From assembly GCF_001542815.1 (NCBI RefSeq), contig NZ_CP006992.1:186001-250000 (forward strand): a DNA stretch of 64,000 bases, written 5' to 3'. Below, piece after piece: positions 342-41,773 of the stretch. The notes below the pieces were generated by a model. It was given only the letters and a program-made list of their open reading frames with translations. It was not told where the DNA came from and did no database searches. A program made the position numbers and the translations under genes. The stretch comes from Methylobacterium sp. AMS5 (GTDB lineage: Bacteria; Pseudomonadota; Alphaproteobacteria; Rhizobiales; Beijerinckiaceae). Every line of letters starts with the position of its first letter. The first letter of the stretch is position 1.

Positions 342-947
342 ATGGAAAAGTTCACGACCCTGGAGGGCGTCGCCGCGCCCATGCGGATCATCAACATCGA
401 TACCGACCGCATCATCCCCAAGCAGTATCTCAAGACGATCAAGCGCACCGGGCTCGGCCAGGGCCTTTTCTCGGAGATGCGCTACAACGACGACGGCTCG
501 GAGAATCCCGATTTCGTCCTCAACCAGCCGGCCTACCGCCACGCCAAGACCCTGGTGGTCGGCGACAATTTCGGCTGCGGCTCCTCGCGCGAGCACGCGC
601 CCTGGGCGCTGGCCGATTTCGGCATCCGCTGCGTCATCTCCACCAGCTTCGCCGATATCTTCTTCAACAACTGCGCCAAGAACGGCATCCTCGCGATCGT
701 CGTCTCGCCGGAGGATCTGGAAAAGCTGTTCCAAGACGCGGAGCGCGGCGCCAATGCGACGCTGACGATCGATTTGGCGGCGCAGACCATCAAGGGCCCG
801 GACGGCGGCACCCTGCATTTCGATATCGACGAGGGCCGCAAGCACAACCTGCTCAACGGCCTCGACGAGATCGGCCTGACCCTCGACCAGAAGGCTCCGG
901 CAATCGACGCCTACGAGGCGAAGCTCGCCCAGCGCGAATGGGCCTGA
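342..947 (+). CDS. leuD: 3-isopropylmalate dehydratase small subunit (LeuD)
   Basis: LeuD is the small subunit of isopropylmalate isomerase, which converts 2-isopropylmalate to 3-isopropylmalate in leucine synthesis in the cytoplasm; it works with the iron-sulfur large subunit LeuC. The 201-residue length is standard. The N-terminus has the family pattern [14 protein letters not shown], and the swivelling-domain loop [15 protein letters not shown] near residues 77-91 is the substrate-recognition segment. The start MEKF is the usual one for the family. No leuC lies in the window, so the two subunits are not co-transcribed here. It converges with the pyroglutamyl-peptidase-like gene, with a palindromic repeat between them. 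Confidence 0.96.
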
Positions 948-955
948 GAACGGAA

Positions 956-1009
956 TAGAGCATCGTCCTTTTCCGACGGCCGGCAACCACCTTTCGGGAC
1001 GATGCTCTA
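956..1009 (-). repeat. Palindromic interspersed repeat, copy 1
   Basis: The 13-bp arms TAGAGCATCGTCC (956-968) and GGACGATGCTCTA (997-1009) are perfect inverted repeats. The interior contains the conserved core GGTGGTTGCCGGC when read on the minus strand. The right arm supplies the TAG stop codon of the minus-strand gene (1007-1009). Three more copies occur in the window, at 17119, 34229 and 41618. With no T-tract it is not a classical terminator. Confidence 0.85.
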
Positions 1010-1624
1010 AGGCTGCGCCCTGCCCCGCAAGGCGAGCACCCGGGCCGCTCCGATCAAGGCTCCGGTCCATCGATCGAGCGCGGGCCGGCGGCCTCCGCCG
1101 GCCTTCGGACGCTGGGTGCGCGGCGGCATCGGGATGTGCACGAAAACCGCCGGGCACCCCGTCGCCAGAACCCGATAATACGAGGCGTTGCACAGGTAGC
1201 GTCCGGCATCACGTGAAGCGGCGGCATCGAGGCCGGCGCGCTTCAGGGCGACCTGCACCTGCGCCGCCGCCCCGCTCCATCGCTGCGCCGGTCCATCCGG
1301 CTCGAACGCGAGCGATTTCCCCACCGTCCCACCCGCATCGGGAAACAACCGGCTGACCCGGTTGACCGCCCGCATCTCGATGCAGACGCGGGACCGGCGC
1401 GCGGCGACGCCAATCATCAGCACGGCACGCGGCCGCCTCGCCAGAACCGGAGCGAGTTGCGTGTCGAGGGCGTCGTAGCGCGTATCGAGCACGACGCAGT
1501 CCGGCGCGTAGCCGAGCCGGCGGCGCAGATGCGGCGAGGCCGCCAGACGCCGGGCGAGGCGCCCGCTCGGGTTGTCGGGCACGGTCGGGAACGGGCCGAA
1601 GCCCGTGATGAGCAGACGGCTCAC
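1007..1624 (-). CDS. Pyroglutamyl-peptidase I-like cysteine peptidase (family C15)
   Basis: Family C15 enzymes remove N-terminal pyroglutamate from peptides. The protein opens with the family pattern [10 protein letters not shown] and keeps all three catalytic positions: Glu in CIEMRAVNR, Cys in [10 protein letters not shown] and His in FVHIPMPP. Its 205 residues are typical. I choose the GTG at 1624 because it overlaps the meaB stop codon as GTGA, which implies translational coupling; a longer frame reaching to 1777 would run through meaB and has no family similarity there. The last codon before the stop abuts the palindromic repeat, which provides the TAG. The active site looks intact, but the substrate is not proven from sequence. 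Confidence 0.82.
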
Positions 1625-17118: not shown

Positions 17119-17172
17119 TTCGCATCATCTTTTTTTCGAAAGCCGGCAACCACCTTTCGGGCCGATGCTCTA
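17119..17172 (-). repeat. Palindromic interspersed repeat, copy 2
   Basis: Read on the minus strand it begins TAGAGCATCGGCCCG and continues with the core GAAAGGTGGTTGCCGGC shared with copies 1 and 3. The distal arm is degraded (GATGATGCG) after a run of seven A. Its first three bases are the TAG stop of the minus-strand DUF6880 gene. On the plus strand it follows the DUF427 stop, so it separates convergent genes. Confidence 0.8.
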
Positions 17173-18714
17173 CCCTTCCACCTGCGACCAGAACCCCGAC
17201 TTGCGCCCGTGTGCCTTGCGAAGCTGCGCCACGTACTCGGCGTGGCTCGGCGTCAGGTCGCCCGACGCAAGTTCCCGCGCGAGTTCGCCCAGACGCATCA
17301 GATGGCGGGCGCCGTGGCCGTAGGCGGGCGAGCGGCCGCGTTCGAGGATGTCGTCGATGAGCGCGCGATAGAGCACGCTCGCCGCCAGCGGATGGTCCGG
17401 CTCCAGCGCCTCGGCGGCCGGGGCGAGCAACTCCCAGATCCGGCCCGACCATGCGTCGCGCCGGTCGAGCACGAGGCGGGCGGCGCGGTCCAGATTCGGC
17501 CAGCGGATCAGGAAGTAGAGGCCGCCATGCGGGTCCTTGCGGTTCGCGGCGTGAACGAAGGCACGCTCCAGCGCCTCCTCGTCCTCGAAATCCGGCAGGC
17601 GGGCGAGGTAATCGCGCAGCGCCTGCGGATCGAGGCTCTTCTCGAACCGCGACCAGCGTAAATCTTGCGCCTTGTCCTTGCGGCCGAGCGCGTCGAGGAT
17701 GCGGATCTCGACGGCCTCACGCTCGCGTTCGGGGCCTTCGGGATCGAATCCGCCGACGATCAGATCCTCGCGCGTCATCACGACCGTGCCGCGCTTCTGC
17801 TTGCGGCGAATCCAGTCGAGGGCCTCGCTGGCGCGGCCTGCCGCAAGCAGCCGCTCGGCCACCGCCGGGAGATCGGGCCGCTCGGGCGACATCTCCAGTT
17901 CGAGGGCGATGAACGCGTCGGCATCGCCGCGGGCGTCGGCGATGACCTGACGCAGGCGGGTGAGGCTCAAGCGGTGGTAGCGCCGCTCCCATTCCTGCCC
18001 GGCCATCTCGAAGACCGCCGGTCCGGTCTTCTTCTTGGCCGACGCCGGAAGCTTGGCGAGGGCGTCGACCAGATGTGCATCGAGCGGTTGGAGCGCGGCC
18101 TTCGGCAGCTTCGGCAGGAGATCGACCAGCAGCGCGCCGACGAGGCCGAAGCCATCATCGTCGAGACCGTCGAGTGCGCGGGTCGCGAAGCCCAGCGCGG
18201 CATCCGCCGAGAGCCCCGCCGCGAGGCCTGCGGCGGCTTCGGCGGCGGCCTCGAAGATGCCGTGCACCTGCCCGCTGGAGTCATCGACCCGCTCCAGCGT
18301 GACGCCGGCGCTCCGGAGGAAGCGCAGCAGCCGGTCGAGGGCCATGCCGGCATCGAGCGGCTTCAGGTCGGAGAGGATGGTCGCGAGCGTGGCATCGAGG
18401 TCGGAGGCGAAAGCCCGGCGCTTCTGCCAATCGATGTAGCCGCGGGCCTTTTCCAGCGCCGAGAGGCGGCGGTCGATCAAGGCCGCCACCCTGTCGGGCC
18501 CTTGGAGAGCGGCAATCGCGGCACTCACCCGCTTCTTGAACGGCGCACTCTGGCCGACCTCTTCGAGGATCAGGGCGATGAGCCGCTCCTGGCTGAGCGC
18601 CGCGAGAGTTTCAGCCGTCGGCGTGGTGCTACGGGATTTTTTGGGCGGCTTCGATTGGGTAGGCGCTTTCGCCGACGCCCCGCTCTCGACCGCCACCTTC
18701 GCCCGTCGCGCCAT
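17170..18714 (-). CDS. DUF6880 family protein, 514 aa
   Basis: The protein is almost entirely helical, with repeated pairs of helices suggesting a TPR- or HEAT-like solenoid. The N-terminal 30 residues are Lys/Ser/Thr-rich and probably disordered. I recognise the DUF6880 pattern in segments such as ALEKARGYIDWQKRRAFASD and the end EYVAQLRKAHGRKSGFW, which in this family resembles a SWIM-protein partner region. No catalytic motif is apparent. It follows mutT by 29 bases on the same strand, so it may be the last gene of the argJ unit. Its stop codon comes from repeat copy 2. Function unknown. Confidence 0.75.
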   Translation of the reverse strand: MARRAKVAVESGASAKAPTQSKPPKKSRSTTPTAETLAALSQERLIALILEEVGQSAPFKKRVSAAIAALQGPDRVAALIDRRLSALEKARGYIDWQKRRAFASDLDATLATILSDLKPLDAGMALDRLLRFLRSAGVTLERVDDSSGQVHGIFEAAAEAAAGLAAGLSADAALGFATRALDGLDDDGFGLVGALLVDLLPKLPKAALQPLDAHLVDALAKLPASAKKKTGPAVFEMAGQEWERRYHRLSLTRLRQVIADARGDADAFIALELEMSPERPDLPAVAERLLAAGRASEALDWIRRKQKRGTVVMTREDLIVGGFDPEGPEREREAVEIRILDALGRKDKAQDLRWSRFEKSLDPQALRDYLARLPDFEDEEALERAFVHAANRKDPHGGLYFLIRWPNLDRAARLVLDRRDAWSGRIWELLAPAAEALEPDHPLAASVLYRALIDDILERGRSPAYGHGARHLMRLGELARELASGDLTPSHAEYVAQLRKAHGRKSGFWSQVEG

Positions 18715-33514: not shown

Positions 33515-34231
33515 ATGAAGAGACGACGCGCACGGCTTGAACTGGTTGAAGACCGACCGATCCGGATGCATCGCACCCGCTTCGACGAGGAACGTAACCC
33601 CGCACCGATCCAACCACTGACCGATCGACAAGGTCAGTACCTCGACGCCCTCGCGTCATCTTCACAAGTCATCGTCTTAGGCCCGGCCGGCACCGGAAAG
33701 ACTTACATCGCCGGCACCCGCGCCGCCGACCTTCTCCGCCAGCGCCGGATCGCGAAGGTCGTCATCACCCGCCCCAACGTGCCCTCCGGCCGTTCGCTCG
33801 GGTTCTTCCCCGGCACGCTCGAAGAGAAGATCGCGCCCTGGGTCGCGCCGCTCACCGAAACCATGAAAGAGCGCATGGGTGCGGCCGCCTTCGACATCGC
33901 GGTGAAGGCCGGCGACATCGAAGTGGTGCCGTTCGAAGTGATGCGCGGGCGCACGTTCAAGAACTGCCTCGTGATCCTCGACGAAGCGCAGAACACCACC
34001 ACGGCCGAGATCAAGATGTTCCTGACCCGCATCGGCGACGATTGCCAGGTCATCATCAACGGCGACGTGTCCCAGACCGACCTGCGCGAGACCTCGGGGC
34101 TTCGCACCGTCATCCACCTCGTGAAGAGCCGGATGATGACGATCCCGATCGTGGAGTTCACCCTCGACGACATCGTCCGCTCCGGCATCTGCGCGGAATG
34201 GGTGAGGGCGTTCGAGGAAGAGAAGATTTAG
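33515..34231 (+). CDS. PhoH family P-loop ATPase
   Basis: PhoH-family ATPases have a RecA-like fold and are linked to RNA metabolism and phosphate stress; some act as RNA helicases with a toxin-type RNase. This 238-residue, single-domain form has Walker A GPAGTGKTYIA near residue 60 and Walker B CLVILDEAQN near 150, with TRPNVPSGRSLGFFPG and NGDVSQTDL typical of the family. The N-terminus is basic. I prefer ATG 33515, which follows AAGGTGGAG, to GTG 33500. Its stop TAG is the first codon of a palindromic repeat. It lacks the PIN nuclease fused in PhoH2 proteins. Confidence 0.9.
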   Translation: MKRRRARLELVEDRPIRMHRTRFDEERNPAPIQPLTDRQGQYLDALASSSQVIVLGPAGTGKTYIAGTRAADLLRQRRIAKVVITRPNVPSGRSLGFFPGTLEEKIAPWVAPLTETMKERMGAAAFDIAVKAGDIEVVPFEVMRGRTFKNCLVILDEAQNTTTAEIKMFLTRIGDDCQVIINGDVSQTDLRETSGLRTVIHLVKSRMMTIPIVEFTLDDIVRSGICAEWVRAFEEEKI

Positions 34232-34275
34232 AGCATCGTCCCGCAAGGTGGTTGCCGGCTTTCGGGAGAAGACGA
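34229..34275 (+). repeat. Palindromic interspersed repeat, copy 3
   Basis: It reads TAGAGCATCGTCCCG then CAAGGTGGTTGCCGGC, with the distal arm partly degraded (GACGATC). The TAG is the stop codon of the PhoH-type gene. It is on the plus strand, opposite to copies 1, 2 and 4, yet in the same orientation relative to the gene that reads into it. Confidence 0.8.
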
Positions 34276-34364
34276 TCTGGAAACATGAAGCTAGAGTCGA
34301 CGCGAAGACCCGGTAATGCGTGATGACGGGGCACGGGATTGCCTCGTCATCACCGGTGCGGCCG

Positions 34365-41371: not shown

Positions 41372-41773
41372 CGACTTGGCGCCACGGTACAAATTCGAAC
41401 GATCGACAACCCAACATTGTTGATGAATGTTAAGTTCGGGTTACGCCCGCGGCGGCGGACGCTCGAACGGGCGTAAGTGTCTTTCACAAAACTTCCGCCG
41501 CGCCGTCATCGTCAGAACGAGAACGGTCAGAGGCCGGGAGTTTTGTGCGGCACTCTAACGCTCTACTGACCGCACCGGTCAGGCTCGACAGTTCCGCCCG
41601 AGCGGCCCGATCGCAGCCTAAAGCATCGTCTTTGCGAAAGCCGGCAAACACCCCTCGGGATGACGCTTGAGACGCCGGGGGCGGCGATGGTGATCCGGTC
41701 GTTCAAGCGAAGGCTCTCCGTTCCGTGCGTCCGGGTTCTGGCTTGAGACGCCCCGAGCACGAGAGGGCGAGGG
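41372..41773. other. Intergenic region with repeat copy 4
   Basis: A 402-bp region. Near 41413-41431 an AT-rich dyad AACATT-N7-AATGTT lies about 40-60 bases upstream of the small membrane protein gene and may be an operator. At 41618 the fourth palindromic repeat copy follows. No coding frame is convincing. Confidence 0.5.
41618..41671 (-). repeat. Palindromic interspersed repeat, copy 4 (degraded)
   Basis: On the plus strand it reads CTAAAGCATCGTC at one end, the core GCGAAAGCCGGCAAACACC in the middle and GGGATGACGCTT at the other; on the minus strand this is the same layout as copies 1 and 2. Both arms have mismatches, so this is the most diverged copy. It lies about 100 bp downstream of the DUF2161 gene stop, in the orientation seen at the other copies. 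Confidence 0.75.

Follow-up and report, generated by a model that had tools for sequence, protein, structure and literature searches.

Palindromic repeats that coincide with stop codons in Methylobacterium sp. AMS5 point to a probable RIME-like miniature mobile element

The Rhizobium-specific intergenic mosaic element RIME1 recurs in Rhizobium, Sinorhizobium and Agrobacterium, and is reportedly about 108 nt long with two large palindromes. RIME1 (Osteras et al. 1995) is cited in PMC2573895, PMC2245857 and PMC2873474, and the accessible portions of these papers make no mention of insertion at stop codons. Repeats that supply stop codons are already known, namely BOX and the GTAG REPs. The accessible text of PMC3049150 reports that BOX of Streptococcus pneumoniae forms the stop codon in 36 of the 58 annotated genes it overlaps, without strong evidence of truncation, that S. 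pneumoniae repeats are enriched between convergent genes, and that the terminal repeats of RUP resemble IS630-Spn1. GTAG REP ends often give TAG stops and CGTC REPs predominate in the alpha division, according to the available part of PMC3733652, and the ERIC/RU elements of enterobacteria are described in the available sections of PMC2759123 as having TA termini, TA duplication and stem-loops and as lying at gene 3' ends. Vuilleumier 2009 lists IS elements and one roughly 400-bp MITE (PMC2680597, accessible part). Our literature search, which covered mainly freely accessible papers, found no description of the Methylobacterium repeat family presented here.

We analysed a window of 64,000 nt of Methylobacterium sp. 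AMS5 (NZ_CP006992.1, positions 186,001-250,000), in which an earlier note had picked out four palindromic repeats. All four were found at the coordinates it gave, except that copy 3, correctly placed at its start, does not end at 34275 (given as 34229-34275) but continues to about 34290, taking in hairpin 1 plus linker. Copy 1 (956..1009, minus strand) is a short form with hairpin 1 only, flanked by TA and bounded by the terminal inverted repeat TAGAGCATCGTCC...GGACGATGCTCTA, while copy 2 (17119..17172, minus strand) has hairpin 1, with the rest of the linker towards lower coordinates, and is without hairpin 2. Copy 3 (34229..34290, plus strand) consists of hairpin 1 and linker, followed by the remnant CTAGAG at 34291-34296. 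Copy 4 (41618..41671, minus strand) is a diverged short form, CTCAAGCGTCATCC...GATGCTTTAG, which is intergenic, about 103 bp downstream of a DUF2161 gene on the minus strand, and not at a stop codon. What had been overlooked is that copies 1-3 each open with a TAG that also serves as a gene's stop codon: a pyroglutamyl-peptidase-like gene (1007-1624, minus strand) ends on the TAG at 1007..1009 (minus), a DUF6880 gene (17170-18714, minus strand) on that at 17170..17172 (minus), and a PhoH-family gene (33566-34231, plus strand, start uncertain) on that at 34229..34231 (plus).

The 22-nt core CGAAAGGTGGTTGCCGGCTTTC, with at most three mismatches, had 142 matches (66 forward, 76 reverse) in the 5.6-Mb AMS5 genome and the reversed pattern, used as a control, had none, which places the window copies far beyond chance similarity; copies 1-3 differ from the core by 0-2 mismatches and copy 4 by 3. 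Aligned copies gave a common full form of about 106 nt, TAGAGCATCRTCCCGAAAGGTGGTTGCCGGCTTTCGG(AAAA)AAGATGATGC - GAAAACAAGAGCCT - CAAGCATCGTCCTGGATCAGGTATCCAGGACGATGCTTGAG, made of two hairpins and a linker, and relative to this bipartite form the window copies are shortened. We examined 107 AMS5 copies, comprising 102 of the 142 core matches and 5 weaker ones, with three opposite-strand duplicates dropped; 47 were full, 9 short and 51 unclassified. A second bipartite subfamily occupies 61 places in AMS5 and reads TAGAGCGCATTCCGACGAAGTGGNNNCCGGTTCGTCG, with a linker and a second hairpin and the core GACGAAGTGGNNNCCGGTTCGTC. Among the matches listed, the loop trinucleotide between GTGG and CCGG differs by genome (mostly TTG in AMS5, often TTT and GAA in the genome G046, mixed in the genome G014), and these dialects would fit a separate recent burst of copies in each genome. 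Rfam gave no match at gathering score in the 64-kb window.

All flank counts were based on a gene finder written for 70% GC DNA and seeded on third-position GC. Taken in core-strand orientation, the flanks of the 107 AMS5 copies were convergent in 49 cases, same sense in 31, opposite sense in 18, divergent in 6 and other in 3, and convergent placement was more frequent among elements with both flanks called (49/104) than among intergenic spaces (17/110; p = 7 × 10−7). We found that the first triplet was the upstream gene's stop, exactly in register, in 31 of the 107 copies (27 TAG, 4 TAA), window copies 1-3 among them, and in 26 of 97 rows when G046 (9/37 rows, 30 loci), G014 (11/30) and the second AMS5 subfamily (6/30) were taken together. 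In other records, for the most part alphaproteobacterial, 80 named loci among the matches listed gave 75 scorable copies, and TAG was the stop in 32 of these; for this set the pattern required TAG and the gene finder was trained on those same loci. Neither TAG nor TAA begins 47 of the 107 AMS5 copies, and stop-coincident copies make up 31 of the 49 TAG or TAA ends that face a gene in AMS5. Only 12 of the 90 non-coding or stop TA dinucleotides in the window lie in stops, so TA targeting alone does not explain the surplus of stop-coincident copies over TA availability, which may reflect true stop-codon recognition, retention (deletion would remove the stop) or a benefit.

At the right end, the repeat formed the stop of the converging gene in 5 of 47 full AMS5 copies, all five ending YTA, and in none of the 14 full AMS5 copies whose right end is TGAG. 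At AMS5 C1:742564, a full copy provides the stops of both its convergent neighbours, one end giving TAG and the other TAA. We also viewed depositors' annotation in 19 plasmid stretches, three of which had none and seven of which had a gene reading towards the repeat; two of these seven genes end on the first triplet, two run into the repeat and three end upstream. In this annotation the repeat's TAG closes bhcD (plasmid pME152 of M. extorquens) and a gene of Sphingobium, and an Allorhizobium gene (PGAP-annotated) and a Rhizobium gene run into copies in which the first triplet is TAC or TCA; TAG is often missing from rhizobial plasmid copies.

The earlier note had argued from orientation to a 3'-end RNA function or to an element that targets gene ends, since the same end faces a gene in all four window copies. 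That description is true but weaker than it sounds, because copies 1-3 have convergent neighbours, with the 3' end of a gene on either side, and copy 4 alone has co-directional neighbours. Across five copy sets, copies with co-directional neighbours had the TAG end facing the gene in 92 cases and not facing it in 48 (p = 0.00025; AMS5 31:18, G046 15:2, G014 7:5, second subfamily 11:9, other records 28:14). The bias relative to the upstream gene is thus real overall, but it is carried by the stop-coincident copies, and with these removed the total was 53:48 (p = 0.69; AMS5 18:18, G046 13:2, G014 3:5, second subfamily 7:9, other records 12:14), G046 (loci L238-L267) being the exception in which the lean persists. 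Because the bias disappears without the stop-coincident copies, orientation gives no support to a 3'-end RNA function.

A functional 3'-end element, whose stable double hairpin would end or protect mRNAs and whose TAG end would be kept upstream by selection since the hairpins must follow the stop, could account for a very stable fold (the 106-nt composite forms two linked hairpins at −58.4 kcal/mol, z −9.6, and copy 1 alone folds at −28.2 kcal/mol, z −5.1), for the position of copies at stop codons or after them, as well as between convergent genes, and for the lean among the remaining co-directional copies of G046. We nevertheless consider it unlikely, given the even split that remains in AMS5 and nearly so over the five sets, and the composite shows no U-tract downstream of either hairpin. 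Window positions 800-1300, the copy-1 region only, were scanned for terminators and gave no terminator-like site. Orthologous genes with the same stop in close relatives have no copy, and 59 of 111 genomes of the genus are without a core match.

We compared the window with orthologous 64-kb stretches of nine relatives (85-92% identical; designated here by G numbers) and found the window copies absent at the orthologous place wherever it was readable, in eight to nine genomes for copies 1-3 and, for copy 4, in G060 as the only readable relative. At the copy-1 site without the element, TAG stands at the same codon in G060 and G069, and four more distant relatives have no stop there. The copy-2 site has TAA in G060, TAG in G014 and G044 and TGA in the six others, and the copy-3 site has TAG in G060 and G014 and TAG or TAA in the next relatives. 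The orthologous place of copy 1 in G014 holds a second-subfamily element, reversed.

Further empty sites came from another 100-kb region, from more stretches and from G014 and G046 loci. Of 57 stop-coincident copies entered, 19 had relative sequence, and 12 were kept after seven had been dropped, five because the relative also had an element (2018302, 3369738, L251, L281, L295) and two for poor orthology (77% and 81%) with no stop at that codon (1593101, 2725338); the addition of the AMS5 site at 1587 kb, where the gene finder confirmed the stop, gave 13 resolved sites. At all 13 sites the gene of a relative without the element (G014 or G060 if available, failing that G075 or G000) ended at the same codon, which was TAG or TAA at 11 of them (binomial p = 8 × 10−6), against a baseline of 24% (67 of 276 AMS5 genes not ending in a copy). 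The site at 1587 kb reads TGA in G060 and TAG in G014, G107 and G069, and if G060 is used there in place of G014 the count becomes 10/13 (p = 1 × 10−4). Two G014 copies outside the 57 were left out of the 13: at 77732, G075 and G107 have TGA at the same codon and the other genomes have elements, and at 75240, where the left gene ends on the repeat's TAG, the aligned place in G000 has no stop at that codon. The latter may be a captured stop, as predicted from the aligned G000 place only. In the least favourable count, with all four exceptions and doubtful sites included, the codon is shared at 14 of 17 sites and TA-type at 11 of 17. The shared codon and the TA-type stop at empty sites therefore indicate that the landing place was mostly an existing TA-type stop rather than a random spot at which a new stop was captured.

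Stop capture without targeting, that is, random insertion near gene 3' ends with an in-frame TAG truncating or extending the protein by chance, would fit the G014 copy at 75240, the two poorly orthologous sites that also have no stop, and the Allorhizobium gene that runs into a copy where TAG became TAC. Capture would, however, shift gene ends, and the unshifted ends at the resolved sites, together with their excess of TAG and TAA, count against it, such that we regard it as improbable. Opposite AMS5 1571845, the seemingly empty site of G060 looks like a deletion scar, G060 having apparently lost the element between the two AGAGCATCGT arms and kept one arm, and it was not counted. In the region around AMS5 C1:1602720 (L170-L204), four genomes have four different palindromes, all starting exactly at one gene's stop; those of G014, G060 and G069 are family-A-like and that of AMS5 belongs to the second subfamily, while G075 and G107 have TGA without an element.

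The ends of the insert were assessed against empty sites. AMS5 1435648 reads gcc-TA(AGGCATCATCC...GACAATGCTC)TA-AGGCACGGG when occupied and gcc-TAAGGCCCGAG when empty in G014, and at AMS5 186975 (copy 1) TA stands on both sides with flanks equal in length to those of G060; at these two sites, two TAs flanking the element thus correspond to one TA in a relative. Flank length also fits a 2-nt duplication at AMS5 1544977, L284 and L287, where the right dinucleotide is CG, TC and TC, respectively; the left TA is a stop codon at two of the three, and as such would be protected. The uniform right end ...GCTTGAG, which is frequent in full copies, is not predicted by simple TA duplication. The left end reads TAGAGC, with no fixed base before TA or TAG.

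A REP/RAYT-type element mobilised, as in the case of the GTAG REPs, by a Y1 (HUH) transposase would share with the repeats their palindromic form, high copy number and patchy distribution, and TAG stops also come from GTAG REPs (PMC3733652, available part). Such an origin nonetheless appears very improbable to us: Y1_Tnp (PF01797) had no match in the AMS5 genome as against matches in 5 of 14 control genomes, the GTAG tag is absent from the repeat ends (TAGAGC, no fixed base before TAG), and the repeats are far longer, bipartite and flanked by TA on both sides at two sites.

IS630-type transposases (PF13358) had 17 matches in the AMS5 genome. A near-identical group of about 1054 bp has CTAGAGCGTTTTCGG at both termini and a singleton has TTAGAGCTGTTACCGA / CTAGAGCTGTTACCGA, so that termini start with CTAGAGCG in the resident group and TTAGAGCTG in the singleton; in a second group, about 1173 bp long, the sequence is CTAGTGGTCTGAG (CTAGTGG...), without GAGC. 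Like the repeats, the AMS5 IS630 elements show TA duplication, here within CTAG, and one group and one singleton have termini beginning TAGAGC. In contrast to the repeats, they encode a transposase, are about 1 kb long and have no repeat core, and the multicopy groups target CTAG, whereas the repeats have no fixed base before TA. The repeat and IS630 (the one group and the one singleton) have only TAGAGC(G) in common. A helper role for IS630 is plausible from the shared TA and GAGC(G), though six or seven bases are no proof. At AMS5 C1:4315228-4315823 (L350), an IS630 copy sits inside CTAG at the end of a family-A repeat, the repeat end having served as IS630 target.

Our preferred reading, which we consider probable, is that the repeats are RIME-like, non-autonomous miniature mobile elements that insert at TA, with an end, GAGC directly after TA, that rebuilds TAG, and that their bias reflects insertion plus selection. 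We infer mobilisation in trans by a TA-specific IS630-type transposase, with selection as a filter. The element would insert at a TA dinucleotide. Wherever that TA belongs to a TAG or TAA stop, the 5' end of the element (GAGC...) would at once restore an in-frame TAG and leave the gene product unchanged, while the opposite end would rebuild a stop only when ending YTA. Insertions inside genes, or the wrong way round at stops, would be purged, and copies would pile up where genes end, chiefly where two genes converge, with their TAG end towards the gene. Position, orientation and the excess between convergent genes would all follow from insertion at TA, a leading G that regenerates TAG, and the disappearance of insertions with any other outcome. 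As a by-product, the repeats might also affect mRNA 3' ends. The fit is incomplete: the copies that open with neither TAG nor TAA, the uniform GCTTGAG right ends, the TC and CG dinucleotides at three sites, the relatives with no stop (or, in G060 at 1587 kb, TGA) at the codon concerned, the mixed plasmid annotation, the persisting lean in G046, the shortness of the IS630 likeness together with the group that lacks it, and the surplus of stop-coincident copies over TA availability all weigh against it. A second suggestion of the earlier note, that the element targets gene ends, is supported by the empty orthologous sites, the existing stops at the insertion point, the convergent enrichment and the TA flanks. 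Tentatively, one might go further and suppose that a miniature element widespread in alphaproteobacteria has evolved to land on stop codons, recognising TAG or TAA beyond the bare TA while its GAGC end rebuilds the stop; life at the ends of expressed genes would then cost it almost nothing, and this niche would be shared by several subfamilies that differ in their stems but have a fixed hairpin core and TAGAGC end.

Position and orientation biases of intergenic palindromes are often read as a hint of RNA function, and here, over the five copy sets, the bias is carried by copies on stop codons. The empty sites, with the stop as landing place at 13 genes, offer a concrete and testable origin for RIME-type repeats and a simple route by which a mobile element could persist in a compact genome and do its genes no harm. 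Genes whose stop is part of a repeat should be anticipated in annotation pipelines.

The core was matched in 52 of the 111 genomes of the genus, AMS5 included, very unevenly (0 to 142 matches each); the reversed control matched in two of these genomes, at one or two places, so single matches per genome may be chance. Within a sample of the order, a related core, CCGAAAAGTGGNNNCCGGTTTTCGG with at most two mismatches, occurred in 108 of 297 genomes (55 of 122 genera), AMS5 included. The arms at 27 such loci vary between genomes and are mostly still complementary, with at least six complementary bases in a row at 21 of 27 loci compared to 12% of arm pairs swapped between loci, and inner stem pairs change together (CCG/CGG, CGG/CCG, CCT/AGG, CCC/GGG). 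AAAAGTGG and CCGGTTTT were constant across those loci, both being required by the search pattern itself. A stop lay on the repeat in 7 of the 12 loci of this set with a called gene reading towards it, under a gene model trained on another genus. PLSDB plasmids gave 4 matches to the AMS5 composite, and an Allorhizobium copy had matches in 142 plasmid records (Rhizobium 84, Agrobacterium 27, Sinorhizobium 8), several being orthologous copies of one locus; phage records yielded no copy at the sensitivity used. Among the matches listed, an exact Rhizobiales-type core with the TAGAGC end occurs at L388, L392, L398, L400, L404, L417, L448 and L455, in records labelled Insolitispirillum, Caulobacteraceae, Parvularculaceae, Rhodobacter(aceae), Cognatishimia and one MAG called Acidobacteria.

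With respect to known systems, the earlier remark that no described family with this core was known is probably wrong in the broad sense, as both the bipartite build and the relatives in Rhizobiaceae suggest the RIME type; the repeats are probably RIME-like by this analogy and not a proven member. The two hairpins in 106 nt resemble the two large palindromes in about 108 nt reported for RIME1, and Rhizobiaceae plasmids have bipartite copies with a related core, some with the same linker. The Methylobacterium arms and core, GAAAGGTGG...CCGGCTTTC, differ from those of Rhizobiaceae, GAAAAGTGG...CCGGTTTTC, and the likeness to RIME1 is one of description, not of consensus. BOX and RUP are unrelated in sequence and host, and the accessible text of PMC3049150 gives no empty sites showing the stop codon as landing place. 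GTAG and CGTC REPs are likewise palindromic and of high copy number, but REPs are 20-40 nt long with tagged ends, and GTAG REPs are tied to RAYTs (PMC3733652, available part). According to the same part of that paper, CGTC REPs have an 8-9-bp stem, a loop mostly of 4-5 nt, a CGTC end and a CCA tail, from which the repeat, compared by description only, differs in arms, core and bipartite form. ERIC/RU elements share with the repeats TA termini, TA duplication, stem-loops and a location at gene 3' ends; they occur in another host group, and in the available sections of PMC2759123 their fusions extend or alter the protein, whereas the repeat described here mostly preserves the stop.
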